Source: an uncultured Bacteroidota bacterium (lineage in GTDB: Bacteria > Bacteroidota > Bacteroidia > Flavobacteriales > Flavobacteriaceae). Taken from it: DNA of 64,000 bases. Both the position numbers and the translations under genes were made by a program. This document shows, in pieces, positions 45,813 to 57,659 of the stretch. Location: the NCBI GenBank assembly GCA_902597545.1, contig CACJYD010000007.1:1-64000 (forward strand), written 5' to 3'. The stretch's first letter is position 1. Every line of letters starts with the position of its first letter. The notes under the pieces are model-generated. The model did not search any database. It worked only from the letters and a program-made list of their open reading frames with translations, and had not been told where the DNA came from.

Positions 45813-47414
45813 TTAGTATAAAAACTTCTTGTCTAATTCCTCAGAGTCTTTATACTTCACTCTTAGATTAGCTAATTTTACTTTGAGTTCTTCAACTATA
45901 TCAGCATATTCTGGATCATTATACACATTATTCATTTCATTGGGATCTTTATATCTATCATATAACTCCCATTCATCAACATCATAATAGAATCTTGCAA
46001 GCTTAAATTCTTTAGTAACAATCCCATAATGTCTTTTAGCCATGTGAACTGATGGATACTCATAATAATGATAATAAACTTCCTCTCTTGTCCATTTATC
46101 ATTTTCTCCCAAAAGTAAAGGCATCAAGCTCTCTCCTTGCATATCATCCGGAACATCAATCATTGCAGCCTCTAAAAATGTTTGTGCAAAATCAAGGTTT
46201 TGAACCATTTCATCATTTGTTATTCCAGGTTTTATTTTATTTGGCCATTTTATCATTAATGGTGTTTTAAAGGATTCATCATAAATAAATCTTTTATCAA
46301 ACCAACCATGTTCTCCTAAATAAAAACCTTGGTCTGATGTGTATATAACAATAGTATTTTCATCAAGTCCCGTTTCTTCCAGGTAATTAAGAACTCTCCC
46401 TACGTTATCATCTACTGAGGAGATAGTAGCAAGATAATCTTGCATGTACCTTTGAAACTTCCATTTCATCTTCTGCTCATCATTCATTTTTGGCCAATTT
46501 TCTTTAAAATCAGCACTAATTTTGTCTAAGGTGACGTCATATTTCTTTTTTTGTTCTTCATTAGCTCTACCAAATGGTCTATTAAATCCTGAAGCATTAG
46601 GACGCATTAAAGTACCATCTCCTCTGACATAAACAATTTCTGGCTCAACTTTACCCATTTCTTCCATAACTGAAGGTCTCACTTTACTATCATGCATGTA
46701 TTGCATATGAGTAAGTAGGTTCATTTCTGCAGTTTTTGCAGCAGTTCCTCTGTTAGAGTAGTCATCAAAAAGCGTTTCTGGTTCAGGAAATTTCTTTTCA
46801 TAAAACTCAGCAAACTTCTCAGGACTTGGCCACCACGCTCGGTGAGGTGCTTTATGCAGGTACATCATCATAAAAGGCTTGTTTTTGTCTCTTTTAGTTT
46901 TGAACCAGTTTAATGTTAGATCAGTTATAACATCTGTGACATAACCAGTGATGGTGGTATCTTTCTTTTGACCTAAAAACTTGGGATTAATGTAATCTCC
47001 TTGTCCAGGAAGAATCCAAAAATCATCTACCCCTTTTGGATTATTTCCAAAATGTAATTTTCCATACATGGCAGTTTGATAACCAGCTTTTTGAAACAGT
47101 TGAGGAAATGTGACCTGCGTGGTATCAAATTTAGCATGGTTATCTATTTTTCCATTTAAATGGCTGTGCTTTCCAGTGAGAATAACAGCTCTGGATGGAG
47201 CGCAAATTGAATTTGTTACACAAGCATTTGTAAATAAAATTCCTTCATCGGCAATCCTATCTATATTTGGGGTTTGGATGAGTTTATCACTATATGCGCT
47301 TATTGCTTGATAAGCATGATCATCTGACATGATAAATAGTATATTAGGTCTTTCATCTTTATCGGCACATCCAGCGACGAACATTAAGATTATTAATAGG
47401 TAAATATTTCTCAT
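45813..47414 (-). CDS. S1-family sulfatase lipoprotein (CAPSR), 533 residues
   Basis: Sulfatase lipoprotein with lipobox VAGC (Cys16). Asp31-Asp32 (SDDHAY) bind calcium; the formylglycine site is Cys71 in CAPSR; TSDQGFYLGEHGW carries the metal-binding Asp and Gln. It is longer than the others because of a ~100-residue insertion between about 220 and 330. SDDHAYQAISAY is typical of glycan-active sulfatases of Bacteroidota and Planctomycetes. It overlaps the upstream sulfatase by 4 nt, so translation is coupled. Confidence 0.9.
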   Translation of the reverse strand: MRNIYLLIILMFVAGCADKDERPNILFIMSDDHAYQAISAYSDKLIQTPNIDRIADEGILFTNACVTNSICAPSRAVILTGKHSHLNGKIDNHAKFDTTQVTFPQLFQKAGYQTAMYGKLHFGNNPKGVDDFWILPGQGDYINPKFLGQKKDTTITGYVTDVITDLTLNWFKTKRDKNKPFMMMYLHKAPHRAWWPSPEKFAEFYEKKFPEPETLFDDYSNRGTAAKTAEMNLLTHMQYMHDSKVRPSVMEEMGKVEPEIVYVRGDGTLMRPNASGFNRPFGRANEEQKKKYDVTLDKISADFKENWPKMNDEQKMKWKFQRYMQDYLATISSVDDNVGRVLNYLEETGLDENTIVIYTSDQGFYLGEHGWFDKRFIYDESFKTPLMIKWPNKIKPGITNDEMVQNLDFAQTFLEAAMIDVPDDMQGESLMPLLLGENDKWTREEVYYHYYEYPSVHMAKRHYGIVTKEFKLARFYYDVDEWELYDRYKDPNEMNNVYNDPEYADIVEELKVKLANLRVKYKDSEELDKKFLY

Positions 47415-48835
47415 TTTTTATAATTCTGGTTTATTGTTGTTTTGTTTGCATTTAAATCAAGTTTAATCTCATCCATTTTTTTAGATAAATTATCTACAAT
47501 TTCAGGATAAGTATCCGCTAAATTGTTTGACTCACTAAAATCATCATATAAGTTATATAATTCTTTAGTATTTTCCTCATAAAATTGAACTAGTTTCCAC
47601 TCTTTATTTCTAATCGCTGAACCTGGTTTCCAGAGACTACCGTGATAATGAGGAAAATGCCAAAAAATGTATTCTCTATCAAACTCTTTTTTAAAAAATA
47701 AATTATTTAGGTCTTTTCCGTCAATATTTTTGATATTGTATTTTGCACCAAGTGCGTTCAATATGGTTGGAAATAAATCATAAGAAACAACAGGCTCGTA
47801 TATTATTTCTCTGTATGCTTGCATTGGAAGTTTCATAAGCTGAGGAATTTTAATTCCTCCCTCATACAGCCATCCTTTTCCAGCCCTAAGCGGATATACT
47901 GAAGTTGGCGCTTCTCCTCTTACAGTAGATAGTCCACCATTGTCTGAGGTAAAAACAATTAATGTATTATCGAATAGTTCATTTTTCTTCAAATAGTTAA
48001 TGATTCTACCGACATTATTATCAGTAGCATGAACCATGGATGCGTACTTCGGATTTCTTTGGTTAAGAACTGTTTTTGCATCACCTTCTTTTTTGGTTAT
48101 TATTTCTTTATCCTCAAAACCATTTAGTTTTTCTAGGTAATAGTCATAAAACTCTTTATTTTCTTGAATTGGAGTATGTACATTATAAAAAGATAAAAAA
48201 GCAGCAAAAGGTTTCGATTTATCTCTGGATTCTATAAAATCAATTGTCTCATTAGTAAGTCTATCAGTTAAGTATTCACCCTCTGGTCCATCAGTCAACT
48301 TTGGGTTTTTATATGGAGAGTAATATCCTCCCATTGGACTACCCTTTTCAAAGCCTCCAACATTAATATCAAATCCCTGATCTTCAGGGTAATATCCTTC
48401 ACTTCCTAGATGCCATTTTCCTGAGTAAAAAGTCTTGTAGCCATTCATTTTTAAAACCTCAGCAATGGTGATTTCATCTAAAGGAAGTTCATCCCTATCC
48501 TTAGGCCCAACCAATAGGTTTTTGGAAGTATTATAATTGTTTTGTTCCTCTAAACCTGGTATCCAATCAGTTATATTAACTCGAGCAGGATGCTTACCGG
48601 TCATTATTGAAGCTCTGGTAGGAGAACATACTGAACTTGCAGCATAAGCGTTAAAAAATAGCATACTTGTTAAACTTAATCGATCAATATTATATGTTTC
48701 ATAAAAGTCTGAACCATTATATGAAACATCAGTCCATCCAAGATCATCTACAAGAATAAAAAGAAGATTAGGTTTATCGTTTGGCTTTGAGCATGATAAA
48801 ATTATGAGAGCAATAAGTAGGCAAAACTTTTTCAT
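47411..48835 (-). CDS. S1-family sulfatase lipoprotein (CSPTR), 474 residues
   Basis: Lipoprotein with lipobox IILSC (Cys15). Asp30-Asp31 (VDDLGW), formylglycine site Cys70 in CSPTR, GKWHLG and TSDNGG motifs follow the canonical S1 layout, close to arylsulfatase A/GalNAc-6-sulfatase style enzymes. It lies 11 nt after the stand-alone plug gene and overlaps the next sulfatase by 4 nt. Probably anchored in the outer membrane or periplasm. Substrate position cannot be inferred. Confidence 0.9.
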   Translation of the reverse strand: MKKFCLLIALIILSCSKPNDKPNLLFILVDDLGWTDVSYNGSDFYETYNIDRLSLTSMLFFNAYAASSVCSPTRASIMTGKHPARVNITDWIPGLEEQNNYNTSKNLLVGPKDRDELPLDEITIAEVLKMNGYKTFYSGKWHLGSEGYYPEDQGFDINVGGFEKGSPMGGYYSPYKNPKLTDGPEGEYLTDRLTNETIDFIESRDKSKPFAAFLSFYNVHTPIQENKEFYDYYLEKLNGFEDKEIITKKEGDAKTVLNQRNPKYASMVHATDNNVGRIINYLKKNELFDNTLIVFTSDNGGLSTVRGEAPTSVYPLRAGKGWLYEGGIKIPQLMKLPMQAYREIIYEPVVSYDLFPTILNALGAKYNIKNIDGKDLNNLFFKKEFDREYIFWHFPHYHGSLWKPGSAIRNKEWKLVQFYEENTKELYNLYDDFSESNNLADTYPEIVDNLSKKMDEIKLDLNANKTTINQNYKK

Positions 48836-48846
48836 TCTAAATAGGA

Positions 48847-49287
48847 TTACTTACCTCTCTTGGTTTTGACAACAACAACGCCATTTCCAGCTCTAGAACC
48901 ATATACAGCAGCTGCAGCATCTTTCAATATGGAAATTGATTCGATATCATTGGGATCCACTTCTTCGATTGTTGCCTCAATACCATCTACAATTATTAAG
49001 GGAGGCTGAGAAAAGTTTCTTATGACAAAAGTTGAGAAATCATCAGGCATTCCAGTGTTTGATCTTCTAACAATTAAACCAGATGCTTGTCCTCTAAGTG
49101 CATCGTTTACATTTGAAGTTGATCCGAGATTAATTTTGTCACCATCAATACTTTGAACTGATGTTGTAGATGAACTTTTTAGTTGTTCTCCATAACCCGT
49201 TTCATAGGATTGGTTTGCATTATTTTCTCCTCCAATCTTGATGGAAGAACATGAGAAAACTAAAAAGATTATTACTAAAAATCTCAC
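48847..49287 (-). CDS. Stand-alone TonB-receptor plug-domain lipoprotein
   Basis: 146-residue lipoprotein that begins with GTG. Lipobox FSC (Cys13). Residues ~35-146 are a complete SusC-type plug: it shares GQA-GL-VR, DF-T--IRNF, PLIIVDGI-AT, VDPNDIE-ISILKDAAA and RAGNGV with the plug of the SusC encoded 2 kb away. There is no beta-barrel and no carboxypeptidase-like domain. The intact lipobox, frame and coding composition argue against a decaying pseudogene. It sits between susD and two sulfatases. A possible role is a decoy, gate or adaptor for SusC; unknown. Confidence 0.7.
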   Translation of the reverse strand: MRFLVIIFLVFSCSSIKIGGENNANQSYETGYGEQLKSSSTTSVQSIDGDKINLGSTSNVNDALRGQASGLIVRRSNTGMPDDFSTFVIRNFSQPPLIIVDGIEATIEEVDPNDIESISILKDAAAAVYGSRAGNGVVVVKTKRGK

Positions 49288-49300
49288 ATCTAAATATAAA

Positions 49301-49331
49301 AAAAAGGATTCAATTTCTTGAATCCTTTTTT
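49301..49331 (-). terminator. Stem-loop between susD and the plug gene (terminator or attenuator)
   Basis: AAAAAGGATTCAA (49301-49313) and TTGAATCCTTTTT (49318-49330) form a perfect ~13-bp stem with a 4-nt loop; on the minus strand it is followed by a U-run. It lies 14 nt before the GTG of the plug gene. It could end most susCD transcripts, lowering expression of the genes downstream. Confidence 0.75.
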
Positions 49332-49353: not shown

Positions 49354-51120
49354 TTAATATCCAGGGTTTTCAACCAAACTTGGATTATCCGCAAGCTTTG
49401 CTGTTCCAATTGGCAACCAGTACATTTTTGGAAGAAAAGCTGTGTTCTGAGAGAAATTCCATCTCCATCTTCTTGCTTTGTACATTCCATCAGATCCTCT
49501 CCTAAACCATTTTACACCCCATTTAGGTTTCATGTGGATAGCAGCTTCTGCATCTCTCCATGTTTTTAAGTCCCAAATGTGGTGATTTTCTCCAAATAGC
49601 TCACAAAATCTTTCGTTTTTAATGTTAGCTAATGTTGCAACTTGTTTTGGAGGCATGCCAACTCTGTTTCTAACAGCATTAAGCATTTGTTTCGCTCTAA
49701 CAGGCTTGCCGATTTCAAATGCAGCCTCAGCAGCATTTAAATACATTTCACCAGTTCTAAACACTACATAGTCTGAATCATCATTATTGTAAGGTATAAA
49801 TTCATAACTACCATCTAATGGTATTCTATGCTGTGCAAGTCTACCACCTCTGTTTCTGTTTCTTGTTGGAGCTCTTCTTGGAGCAACATCTCCTCCTCTA
49901 CCTTTCACATTATTATTTGAGGCTCCAATAGTGTTATCATGGAACCAAACACTTCTTCCTGCATAAACTTCTTCTGGTGTCCATGCCTTAGCTAAATATC
50001 TTGGATCCTTCTTGTAAACAACTTCCTCAATATCGAAGAATGTCTTATTATTAAACAGTTTTCTGTTTTTGTTACCAGGGGTACCATCTTTATACTCGAA
50101 TCTTTCAACTGAAGCCTCATAGATATGAGTATTTGATCCCCATCCAGATTTAAACCCGTCAGGCATGTTAAAATAACCATGCATGTGAGTTTTACCAAGA
50201 CCAAGATCGTATTCAGTTACAAATATCATCTCAGAATTGCCTTTTTTTGTAAGTACTTCAGAGTATGTTTTTTGATAAGTTCCACCACCAGTATGTAGAG
50301 GATGTTTTCCACTATCAATAATTGCACTAGCTGAAGCGTGGGACATTGTGTAATATCCAGCAGCTAAACTTGCAGGGATTGATGTCAATCCATCAGCAGA
50401 CTGTGGATGATATTTTGCGATTCTTGCAGCATAGAGAGAAGCTCTACTCTTCAGAGCATGAGCAGCCCACTTTGTAGCTTTACCACTCATTGCTGTACCT
50501 GGAAGATCTGCAATTGCAGCATCACAATCAGCAATAACTTGATCGTAAGTCTCTTGCAGAGTAGATCTAGGAGTCATCAGCTCTTCATAGGTAGCATCAA
50601 GTTGTTTAGGAACCAATTCAATTGGAACTCCACCATATCTTTTAGCCATTTCAAAATACATAAATGCTCTCAAAAATTTAGCCTCTGCAGTTTGAACCTT
50701 AACAACTTCAGGATCAAATGTTGCTTCAGCAAGTATTTCTATGATTTCGTTGGCAGATCTGATGTTTCCATATGCCCAATAATTAAGGGAGGTACGAGCT
50801 CCAGAAGCAGTTGGAATATCAGTTGATGCTTTAATTGATTCTTGCCATGGTGCCATTGCAGTACCTTCACCACCAGTTATGAAATCAACGAATCTCCAGT
50901 GTTTCCAGTTAGTTTTACCACCGTCTCTTTGACCTACATGGTCATTAGGTTCCCACCTTGTGTTGTGGTAAATTTTAGTTAAAAATGCCTCAACTAATTT
51001 TGGATCATTTTTAACTGCATCTTCTCCAATCATGTTTGTAGGCTGCAAATCTAAATCCGCACAACCAACAAGTATCATCATCGGGAGAAAAAAGTAAAGA
51101 AATTTATTTATTTTATTCAT
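49354..51120 (-). CDS. SusD/RagB-family outer-membrane glycan-binding lipoprotein
   Basis: 588-residue surface lipoprotein with lipobox LVGC (Cys20). The tetratricopeptide-like helical core (ANEIIEILAEATF, AEAKFLRAFMYFEMAKRYGGVPI) and the C-terminal segment FCELFGENHHIWDLKTW plus final YWLPIGTAKLADNPSLVENPGY-like tail (here ending NPGY) are characteristic of SusD. It forms a lid over the SusC channel and binds the target oligosaccharide. It lies 32 nt downstream of susC and shares its operon. Confidence 0.94.
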   Translation of the reverse strand: MNKINKFLYFFLPMMILVGCADLDLQPTNMIGEDAVKNDPKLVEAFLTKIYHNTRWEPNDHVGQRDGGKTNWKHWRFVDFITGGEGTAMAPWQESIKASTDIPTASGARTSLNYWAYGNIRSANEIIEILAEATFDPEVVKVQTAEAKFLRAFMYFEMAKRYGGVPIELVPKQLDATYEELMTPRSTLQETYDQVIADCDAAIADLPGTAMSGKATKWAAHALKSRASLYAARIAKYHPQSADGLTSIPASLAAGYYTMSHASASAIIDSGKHPLHTGGGTYQKTYSEVLTKKGNSEMIFVTEYDLGLGKTHMHGYFNMPDGFKSGWGSNTHIYEASVERFEYKDGTPGNKNRKLFNNKTFFDIEEVVYKKDPRYLAKAWTPEEVYAGRSVWFHDNTIGASNNNVKGRGGDVAPRRAPTRNRNRGGRLAQHRIPLDGSYEFIPYNNDDSDYVVFRTGEMYLNAAEAAFEIGKPVRAKQMLNAVRNRVGMPPKQVATLANIKNERFCELFGENHHIWDLKTWRDAEAAIHMKPKWGVKWFRRGSDGMYKARRWRWNFSQNTAFLPKMYWLPIGTAKLADNPSLVENPGY

Positions 51121-51152: not shown

Positions 51153-54100
51153 TTAAAAATTAATTTTAAGTCCAGTAGTCCAAGACTTAGTCGTTGGATA
51201 AGAACCTTGTTGATTACCAGTCACTTCAGGATCATAAAGTCCTGACCATATCTCTAAGTTGTCTATAGTGAATACATTGTTTCCAGCAAGGTAAAGTTGA
51301 ATAGCATCCAATCCTAACTTATCAGTTACATTTTTTGGTATGTTATATGCAACATTCAATGTTTTTAGTCTTAAGTACCATGCATCAATTTTTGTAAAAT
51401 CACTCGCTCGTGCACTTATTGATGGTACACCACCTGTGTTGTTAGCTGGTGGAAACCTCCTTAGTATTTCAACATCACCATTAGCTCCTTTAACAGACCT
51501 ATTGTCATAAGCAACCTGAGTTGGTATTGATTGGTGACTATTTAATCCTTGCCAACTTGCTGTTCCTCCAAATGTAACAGTGTATCCAGTAGCACCTTGC
51601 CATAATGCCTGTACACTCCAATTACCCCATCTTGCATTAGTCCACGTACTATAATTCCATTTTGGCATTCCACCTTTTCCGATAATGACTTGATCTTTCC
51701 AATCTAGTAAGCCATCACCATTTTGATCTACAAATATTAGGTCACCGACAATAACAGTTTGATTACCCGCATTATCAGCATCAATTGGGTGGTTGTCTAT
51801 CTGGCTTTGGGAAGTAAAGAATCCATTTGCGTTAAAGCCCCACTGAACATCATCCCATTGGCCAGTTCTAGCATATCTTGCATTATATAGAGCATTTGCA
51901 GCAGCAGTTGCAGCATCAACTCCTTCAGTTGGAAGAATATTTTCATCCCATGAAACATATTTTCCTCTAGCCCATGAAATCATAGGGTTGATTTCATAAC
52001 TAACAGCTCCTACTTTTCCTTGGTGCTTCAACATCAAATCAAATCCTCTGTTGTCTCTTGTATTTAAGTTTGTTCTAGGTAAGCTAGCTCCAAAGTTAAA
52101 AGGTACACCCTCAGTTGGAATAGCCAAAATATCTTCTCTAAGTCTGTAGAAGACATCAAACTCAAATCCTAAACCACCATCCCAAAGTGTTCCTTCGATA
52201 CCAAGGTTGGCAATTTTCATTGTTTCCCATGTAACAAGAGCATTTGCCAAACCTGCGGAGGAAATAATTGGATATGGATCTCCGTTAAATAAGTAGAATC
52301 CATTTGCAATATTATAACCAGTTAAAAAGTCAAAGTTTGATACTGCATCATTACCCATGATTCCATAAGAAGCTCTGAATTTTAAATTATTCCATGCAGA
52401 ATTATCTTTCATAAAATCTTCTTCAGATATTCTCCATCCAAAACTAAGGCTTGGAAAATATCCCCATCTACCTTCAATTGAATATCTAGCAGTTGCATCC
52501 GCTCTCATTGTAGCAGAGAATAAATATTTGTCCTTATGGCTGTAATTTACCCTACCTACAAAACTTTTTCTAGCGCTTTCTGAGAAAATCTCAGCATTAT
52601 CCAATTCAGCTCTTGATGAATAATTCAAATATGGAGCTTCGAAAGATAATGGGTCAGTTCTAGATCCCATTAAATAATCTCTTTTGAATGATGTTGACTC
52701 AGCCACAAATAATGCATTAAGTACATTATCACCCCACTCAGTATCATATTGCACAGTTAATTTAGGTAGTAACTCCATATCTCTATCAGAATTAACATTA
52801 ATAGCATCTCTCATAAATAAACCATACAATGTATAAACATCAGATGATGTTGAGAGTGATGGATCATATGTATACATTGGAAACTGTGACTGTATACTTT
52901 TATTCCACTCAGTTTGAGTTTCCATATTTAAACTACCTGTAATTTTCATTCCAGAAATAAAAGGAACATCATACGTAAGACTTATTGCTCCTCTTAAGTT
53001 GTTGTCCCTTTGAACAATATTTCCTGAGTAATCTTTTCTGATTTGATACATTGGAGAATATGGTGAAGCAGCACCAGTATGTGATGCGTAGGACTCATCA
53101 GGAAATTCAGCTAAATATGTTGGTTTACCTGAATTTAACCTTGTGTAAAAATTTTGAGTATCAAAATGTGCCTTGTCCAGAGTTGTTTGAAAATAAGACA
53201 TATCAACTTGAGCAGTCAAATTATCATTAAACTTCATATCCAAGTTTGTTCTAATATTATAACGCTGGTGCGTGTAATCAGCTTTTCTTAACTGACTTTC
53301 TGTATCAGTAAAACCAACAGAAATAAAATATCCAATATCCTCACTTCTTCCGCGGGCACTTAGGTTATGTTGTGTTTGCAATTGCCAGTCCTCATAAACA
53401 ATATCTCTCCAGTCGTTTCCAGCAAAGTCTAAGCCAGTTGTTGTATCAAATACTTGCTTTCTTTCATCATCCCAACCAAGGTATGGAGGCATTAAGTCAC
53501 TAAGTGGTTGTCCTTGCTCATTATAACCTAGATCAACATAGTCATTTGTTCCAATCGTTCTTGGCTCATATGTTAAAGCCGACATTGATAATGTACCGTT
53601 ATAAGTAAATTTAGCACCCTGACCTCTGTCAGTTCCTCTTTTTGTAGTTATTAAAATTACACCATTACCAGCTCTTGCTCCGTATATCGAAGCTGCGGCA
53701 TCCTTCAGAATAGATATATTTTCAATATCATTTGGATCAACTTGTCCGAATGTTGCAACGATTCCGTCTACAATTATAAGCGGTGCTTCGAAATTTCTGA
53801 TCCTCAATGTAGCAAAATCAGAACCAGGAAGTCCTGAGCCTGATCTTACAGAAAGACCAGCAGCTTGCCCCATTAATAATTGACTTGTGTTAGGAGCAGG
53901 TCGTAAGTTAATTTCTTCCCCAGAAATTGATGCAACAGAACCAGTTAAGGTTTTTTTCTGCTGTGTTCCATAACCTACTACCACCACTTCCTCTAATTTA
54001 GATACATCCTCAGCCATAACAACATTCATTGTAGCAGAGGCTCCAACTTCCTGAGTAACATAACCGATGTATGAAAAAACGATTGTAGCAGCATCTCCAA

Positions 54101-54299
54101 CATTTAGCTGGAAATTACCATCAAAGTCTGATACTGTTCCATTACTAGTTCCCTTTTCAACTATACTAACTCCAGGAAGTGCATTACCCTCCTCATCAGC
54201 AACAGTACCACTGATTATATTTTGAGAAAAAATTAAGTTAGTTGATAGTAAAAAAGCGAACAATAAGAACAGATTTCTATAAATATTCTGTGTATTCAT
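51153..54299 (-). CDS. SusC/RagA-family TonB-dependent oligosaccharide importer
   Basis: 1048-residue outer-membrane transporter. I start at the ATG at 54297-54299 (MNTQNIYRNLFLL), directly before the signal peptide (about 1-26); the frame is open 24 codons further up, but those do not look like a signal. It has a carboxypeptidase-D-like domain (28-97, ISGTVADEEGNALPGVS), a TonB-box-like VVVVGYGTQ (104-112), plug (about 115-225, IIVDGIVATFG) and barrel ending in TTGLKINF. With the SusD partner it imports glycan fragments into the periplasm. A 183-nt region separates it from the GH2 gene. Confidence 0.95.
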   Translation of the reverse strand: MNTQNIYRNLFLLFAFLLSTNLIFSQNIISGTVADEEGNALPGVSIVEKGTSNGTVSDFDGNFQLNVGDAATIVFSYIGYVTQEVGASATMNVVMAEDVSKLEEVVVVGYGTQQKKTLTGSVASISGEEINLRPAPNTSQLLMGQAAGLSVRSGSGLPGSDFATLRIRNFEAPLIIVDGIVATFGQVDPNDIENISILKDAAASIYGARAGNGVILITTKRGTDRGQGAKFTYNGTLSMSALTYEPRTIGTNDYVDLGYNEQGQPLSDLMPPYLGWDDERKQVFDTTTGLDFAGNDWRDIVYEDWQLQTQHNLSARGRSEDIGYFISVGFTDTESQLRKADYTHQRYNIRTNLDMKFNDNLTAQVDMSYFQTTLDKAHFDTQNFYTRLNSGKPTYLAEFPDESYASHTGAASPYSPMYQIRKDYSGNIVQRDNNLRGAISLTYDVPFISGMKITGSLNMETQTEWNKSIQSQFPMYTYDPSLSTSSDVYTLYGLFMRDAINVNSDRDMELLPKLTVQYDTEWGDNVLNALFVAESTSFKRDYLMGSRTDPLSFEAPYLNYSSRAELDNAEIFSESARKSFVGRVNYSHKDKYLFSATMRADATARYSIEGRWGYFPSLSFGWRISEEDFMKDNSAWNNLKFRASYGIMGNDAVSNFDFLTGYNIANGFYLFNGDPYPIISSAGLANALVTWETMKIANLGIEGTLWDGGLGFEFDVFYRLREDILAIPTEGVPFNFGASLPRTNLNTRDNRGFDLMLKHQGKVGAVSYEINPMISWARGKYVSWDENILPTEGVDAATAAANALYNARYARTGQWDDVQWGFNANGFFTSQSQIDNHPIDADNAGNQTVIVGDLIFVDQNGDGLLDWKDQVIIGKGGMPKWNYSTWTNARWGNWSVQALWQGATGYTVTFGGTASWQGLNSHQSIPTQVAYDNRSVKGANGDVEILRRFPPANNTGGVPSISARASDFTKIDAWYLRLKTLNVAYNIPKNVTDKLGLDAIQLYLAGNNVFTIDNLEIWSGLYDPEVTGNQQGSYPTTKSWTTGLKINF

Positions 54300-54444
54300 A
54301 ATAACTATTTTTATTGTATTAGTTTTTTTGTTGTTTTGTAGTTGGTGAAGATAAATAAAAAAAATCTTCATTCCAACAATATCTCAATAAAACATACTTC
54401 AAATTTTTAAAAATTCAATAGAGAAGGTATTTTTTTGAGATATT

Positions 54445-54482: not shown

Positions 54483-57659
<3,177 letters not shown>

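Follow-up and report, generated by a model that had tools for sequence, protein, structure and literature searches.

The 64,000-nucleotide stretch of DNA analysed here (the window) carries on its minus strand a PUL whose elements run in the order GH2 enzyme, susC, susD, hairpin, plug-only gene, two sulfatases and two SASA esterases. The features of interest are:

54483–57626, minus strand: GH2 beta-galactosidase-type enzyme, upstream of susC
51153–54371, minus strand: susC, 1072 aa, with N-terminal extension, TonB box, plug and barrel
53976–53993, minus strand: TonB box of the window SusC, EEVVVV preceding GYG (definition from the available part of PMC7782687)
53634–53975, minus strand: plug domain of the window SusC, 61% identical to the plug-only protein
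49354–51120, minus strand: susD, a SusD/RagB lipoprotein with acidic residues at +3 and +5
49300–49331, minus strand: terminator-like hairpin between susD and the plug gene, a likely attenuator, with a 14-bp stem and then T's
48847–49287, minus strand: plug-only lipoprotein CDS, 146 aa, GTG start and clean stop, with same-length orthologs in related genomes
49249–49287, minus strand: lipoprotein signal, residues 1–12 plus Cys13 (VFS, then C), with no acidic residues at +2 to +6
49198–49248, minus strand: flexible tether, residues 14–30, with low pLDDT, at the site of the SusC TonB box, which is missing here
48850–49197, minus strand: SusC-type plug domain, residues 31–146 (GYG to TKRGK), by Pfam, plug alignment, AlphaFold and Foldseek
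47411–48835, minus strand: sulfatase lipoprotein directly 3′ of the plug gene, after an 11-bp gap (a 4-bp overlap in two orthologs)
45813–47414, minus strand: second sulfatase, with a surface-export-like CADKDE N terminus

The original prediction described the product of the gene at 48847–49287 as a 146-residue lipoprotein consisting of a lipobox and a SusC-type plug without a barrel. The ORF is exactly as described: the Pfam Plug model PF07715 matches residues 38–137 (2.9e-18; profile positions 3–107 of 107), and the Pfam search gave no barrel-model match. The stop falls one residue past TKRG, in an open frame of 160 aa that holds no barrel. The SusC/RagA signature TIGR04057 matches the protein as well (58.2 bits, cut-off 46.2), and the full-length model TIGR04056 reaches 136.6 bits, below its cut-off of 368.25. 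The close match, also predicted, to the plug of the SusC whose gene lies two upstream amounts to 71 identical residues of 116. The plug is complete, as had been proposed, when judged by Pfam, but it comes without the N-terminal extension (CarboxypepD_reg-like, PF13715) present in SusC and without the TonB box. At the N terminus, Ser12 and Cys13 are invariant among 11 proteins compared, and by inspection a hydrophobic stretch followed by S-C is found in all 12 plug-only proteins identified. An AlphaFold model built on a 33-row alignment has a mean pLDDT of 67.7, with a disordered N terminus (pLDDT below 50 at residues 1–23 and 25–28) and a better core (block means of 79–85 over residues 91–140); Foldseek searches with this model place SusC/RagA chains at the top, including the BT1763 chain 6z9a_B at 2.2 Å over 107 columns.

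Across 45 genomes of two genera, 11 carry the gene and together encode 12 plug-only proteins, all of them intact. In the window's genus the gene is present in 6 of 23 genomes, always between susD and the sulfatase, and the second genus contributes six proteins from 5 of 22 genomes. One second-genus genome, G026, has the gene in the same place of the PUL (locus L067), whereas in the other four the plug-only gene and susCD lie on different contigs; linkage of the plug and SusC genes holds for 7 of the 11 carriers. The unlinked genes adjoin a MORN/aspartyl-protease gene in three genomes and lie near apparent tuf/rpl genes in one, with DoxX and DinB genes also beside the plug in two of the three MORN/aspartyl-protease loci (neighbour families were checked for L161 and L164 only). 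Two nearly identical copies stand in tandem in G431 (L161:7800–8767; dN 0.003) on a contig other than that of susCD. Named genomes with the family are AG-447-L22, FRAM18_bin219 (BACL29) and UWMA-0351; a scan of named genomes found, among the best 80 of 552 matches, four short ORFs of the family at three loci, in genomes already counted. A fifth short match in that scan (L108, 247 aa) appears to be a fragment of a broken susC.

A cognate-type SusC (plug match with E of 1e-30 or better) occurs in all 11 plug-carrying genomes, and none of the 22 genomes without such a SusC has the plug-only gene (Fisher P = 2e-4 for the 45 genomes of two genera); the unlinked genes of the second genus, taken alone, co-occur with a cognate-type SusC in 4 of 4 genomes (P = 0.017), and both P values are only a guide because the genomes are related and incomplete. 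The gene was undetected in 12 of the 23 genomes that have a cognate-type SusC, three of which have a contig ending in or near susCD. In G014, G012, G003 and G010 the sulfatase comes immediately after susD, with no plug gene between. Draws of 397 (E 1e-36), 395 (1e-42) and 395 (1e-44) genomes yielded no plug-only member of the family outside the two genera, with only 9–10 candidates scored per genome where many were found, and given these strict cut-offs and few scored candidates, diverged relatives could be missed.

We then placed 74 of 118 extracted plug rows (12 plug-only proteins, 23 cognate SusCs and 39 others) in a tree. Over only 117 columns, and with a bootstrap that had not fully settled (0.986), the 12 plug-only proteins form one clade (100/99) on a long stem, with the 23 cognate SusC plugs outside it. 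The nearest relatives of the window protein are thus plug-only too, not barrel-bearing receptors. The AU test does not reject an origin within the clade of in-operon SusCs (P = 0.343), with no firm place for G026; a recent copy of the neighbouring susC is unsupported, as the best tree puts the plug-only proteins outside the clade of cognate SusCs. As a separate observation, the SusC of G026 (L067:11052–14228), from the second genus, groups with the in-operon-plug SusCs of the window's genus (99/97), and this grouping across genera suggests transfer of the PUL between them.

Nei–Gojobori dN/dS is 0.11–0.45 in all 65 pairs listed (out of 66 plug-only pairs), well below one, with dS above 1 in most. 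Values for individual pairs are 0.175 for G013–G020 (dS 0.37), 0.413 for G026–G421 (dS 0.69), 0.139 for G431b–G421 (dS 0.78), 0.287 for G013–G022 (dS 0.79), 0.139 for G431a–G421 (dS 0.81) and 0.173 for the window–G018 pair (dS 1.03). The C-terminal half is the constrained part, with a dN of 0.026 for G013–G020, 0.038 for G431a–G421 and 0.044 for window–G018, and the N-terminal half moves faster. In 9 of the 10 genome pairs compared it is the SusC plug that evolves more slowly than its plug-only counterpart, the exception being G431–G421 (0.188 versus 0.112). Three residues, K51, P95 and S131, are fixed in all 12 plug-only proteins and rare or absent in the 23 SusCs. The argument that an intact lipobox, start and stop speak against decay is supported, and intact orthologs, a single clade and low dN/dS lead us to reject a decaying susC remnant. 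Taken together, these data demonstrate that the window ORF encodes a genuine, intact, stand-alone plug lipoprotein.

The hairpin between susD and the plug gene has a comparable stem in all seven in-operon plug loci, and where a plug gene is absent from that place in a PUL of this type, a stem still follows susD in 7 of 8 loci examined (the exception is G429). Stem sequences differ among loci, and the element at 49300–49331 resembles a conserved attenuator set between susCD and the enzyme genes. Because it lies between susD and the plug gene, the latter heads the downstream enzyme segment; the predicted position inside a PUL operon holds as far as the PUL is concerned, but the terminator-like hairpin parts the gene from susD. 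Judging from the position of the hairpin, the plug-only protein is probably made in smaller amounts than SusCD. Between the plug gene and the start of the sulfatase the spacing ranges from −4 to 14 bp across all seven in-operon loci. In G431, a PhoD-like phosphatase gene (L165:9716–11356) sits between susD and the sulfatases, and a similar-looking gene is found there in L167 and L168.

On which side of the outer membrane the protein resides can be predicted from its N terminus. According to the available part of PMC5080379, surface export needs acidic residues after the Cys, with SDDFE as the Flavobacterium johnsoniae consensus. Applied by eye to positions +2 to +6, this rule (from the same part of PMC5080379) gives no acidic residue in 11 of the 12 plug-only proteins and one in G419, compared with two in SusDs (7 of 7 examined), one to three in the second sulfatases (7) and none or one in the first sulfatases (7 examined). 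The surface-export signal is thus missing in all 12, and the plug-only protein is predicted to be an outer-membrane lipoprotein facing the periplasm.

We next compared functional sites between the 12 plug-only proteins and the 23 cognate SusCs, a comparison that gives the best evidence on mechanism. The TonB box is present in 23 of 23 SusCs and in none of the plug-only proteins, so that contact with TonB, one of the roles originally suggested, is unsupported and contact through this box is rejected; among the 12, the protein of G026 retains the largest part of the box (EEVVDTGYG), and since the tether varies freely, the loss may reflect neglect. The apex dipeptide is GQ in 23 of 23 SusCs and in 0 of 12 plug-only proteins, of which ten are acidic at one or both positions and the remaining two read KY and NQ. 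This dipeptide corresponds to BT1763 H169/E170 by ungapped register back from NDI, a register set by hand because HMMER puts a gap there when SusC itself is aligned. The BT1763 residues are described as touching substrate in the part of PMC7782687 available.

Residues expected at the barrel interface behave differently from the apex and the TonB box. R90 and K122, aligned with FhuA R93 and R133, are kept in all 12 plug-only proteins; FhuA R133 also takes part in the salt bridge between R93 and the barrel. That bridge, from R93 to barrel residues E522/E571, is needed for all FhuA activities (PMC11658791, in the part available). Likewise, Y32 and Y129 are kept in 12 of 12 and align with Y89 and Y191, the plug-side aromatic lock of BT1763 (available sections of PMC7618045). 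The barrel partner of this lock is given as F558 in the text of PMC7618045 and as F588 in its legend, in the portions available; if it is F558, it aligns with Val605 of the window SusC. All four residues, R90, K122, Y32 and Y129, belong to motifs common in SusC plugs, and folding alone may account for their retention. With the TonB box and the GQ apex gone and the barrel-seating residues kept, the opening signals are lost and the seating features remain, a pattern that fits the original idea that the protein competes with or regulates the native plug.

Known systems offer partial parallels. The plug of SusC/RagA transporters (PF07715; BT1763, RagA) has the same fold, with 31–38% identity among the matches listed, and shares its barrel-contact positions with the plug-only protein; the transporters, however, have a barrel, an N-terminal extension and a TonB box, where the plug-only protein has a lipid anchor instead. 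The cork and barrel of FhuA have reportedly been synthesised separately in E. coli, and the free cork is said to have kept its TonB box. Such a cork made apart from its barrel and studied in E. coli (Braun 2003, as cited in the available part of PMC2615193) is a free cork beside a barrel, as the plug-only protein would be, but it is an artificial laboratory construct. In type 9 secretion, a Plug protein distinct from SprA (PMC7463736, part of the text) closes this outer-membrane pore from the periplasm and would resemble the plug-only protein if the latter is indeed a stopper; the SprA pore differs from SusC, however, and the SprA Plug is not among the best 50 of 184 Foldseek matches of the plug-only model.

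We tentatively favour, at somewhat less than even probability, the reading that the protein is a stopper on a tether, unresponsive to TonB and to substrate, which would fill SusC barrels left without a plug of their own. We infer the periplasmic location, the docking into SusC and the stopper role. Anchored by its lipid and a tether some 17 residues long, the plug would stay at the inner surface of the outer membrane. When a cognate SusC barrel loses its plug, through displacement in transport, proteolysis or mis-assembly, the tethered plug would enter the plugless barrel from below and seal it. Lacking a TonB box, it could not be pulled out by TonB, we propose, and with its altered apex it would not sense substrate; it would serve as a safety stopper or, at higher dose, as an inhibitor. 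SusC barrels with the whole plug expelled or proteolysed have been seen in vitro, and BT1763 TonB-box mutants grow as badly as those that have lost SusD (both from the available part of PMC7782687). In the levan utilisome every SusC barrel is plugged, unlike in the LDAO-solubilised complex (PMC7618045, available part), so empty barrels may be rare in cells. Also against a stopper, a native plug, being covalently joined to its barrel, would outcompete it in cis, and dN/dS is not uniformly low (0.41 for G026–G421 and 0.29 for G013–G022, both with dS below 0.8). In isolation, the plug of FepA has the behaviour of an unfolded protein (Usher 2001, as described in the available part of PMC11658791).

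Other roles can be weighed against the same evidence. The abutting or overlapping sulfatase start (−4 to 14 bp in all seven in-operon loci) would suit a periplasmic glycan receptor that captures sulfated oligosaccharide as it arrives and hands it on to the neighbouring sulfatase in the periplasm, both proteins looking periplasmic by their N termini (none or one acidic residue at +2 to +6 in the first sulfatase), and the isolated FepA plug does bind ligand weakly (5 μM; PMC11658791, available part). Nevertheless, the replacement of the GQ apex of 23 of 23 SusCs in all 12 proteins, by acidic residues unfavourable for sulfated glycans in ten, together with four genomes that by reading of ORFs have no sulfatase beside the plug gene, makes a receptor unlikely. 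The close spacing or overlap within the operon, along with the retained contact positions, could also point to an address tag, a plug whose docking to SusC serves solely to place a partner, for example the coupled sulfatase, near the channel exit; the unlinked genes of four genomes and the lack of any extra domain besides the tether leave this role quite improbable. The protein could instead be an assembly factor or decoy that sets how much SusC is assembled by binding to SusC barrels as they form, to BAM or to chaperones of the periplasm. It has the fold and contact positions of the native plug, and its gene follows a likely attenuator, so that its amount is probably lower than that of SusCD. 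Yet 12 of the 23 genomes with a cognate-type SusC show no plug gene and no sequence feature points to BAM, and we regard such a factor as improbable.

Two further explanations are very improbable. The protein clearly descends from a SusC-type plug and mostly outpaces it in rate (9 of 10 genome pairs), as might a non-functional remnant of a duplicated susC, but 12 intact proteins in one clade at dN/dS 0.11–0.45, the gain of a lipoprotein signal, the tandem copy in G431 and the private fixation of K51, P95 and S131 weigh heavily against it. A lid or decoy on the cell surface, as the original prediction allowed, would have a model in its neighbour SusD, a lipoprotein lid; the surface-export signal as defined in the available part of PMC5080379 is missing in all 12, and a position on the periplasmic side is predicted instead.

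What is new here is a SusC plug domain used without the transporter, with a stopper as its tentative function. Among the titles and abstract beginnings found in the open-licence PMC literature, none describes a plug-only lipoprotein, and PMC3621798, in the part available, merely names the Pfam model. If the protein is a natural trans plug without a TonB box, it would be a ready tool for testing whole-plug exit in cells. Not every short PF07715 protein of Bacteroidota should be dismissed as a truncated receptor.

The window's own genome has 21 plug matches, one more of them in a short frame (156 aa at G000:C13). This copy belongs to family C (L176:1486–1932, G000:C13; 148 aa), one of two further barrel-less plug families of the genus, and lies outside the window beside an M1 peptidase gene; members are 137–151 aa long in the loci read, and short-frame copies occur in 11 of the genus's 23 genomes. 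Family B is a 139-aa lipoprotein found in 2 of the 23 (L042:7304–7723 and L043:7048–7467). Both are short secreted plug proteins like that of the window, family C with what by eye is an ordinary signal peptide, and a TonB box is missing from all six proteins of families B and C that were checked. It is possible, if rather doubtful, that barrel-less plugs are recurring outer-membrane regulators in marine flavobacteria, with at least three families in one genus, each nearest to a different SusC, acting as TonB-box-free periplasmic stoppers that gate or repair SusC in trans. Families C and B each have a different nearest SusC in their own genomes (58% and 48%), which suggests separate origins.
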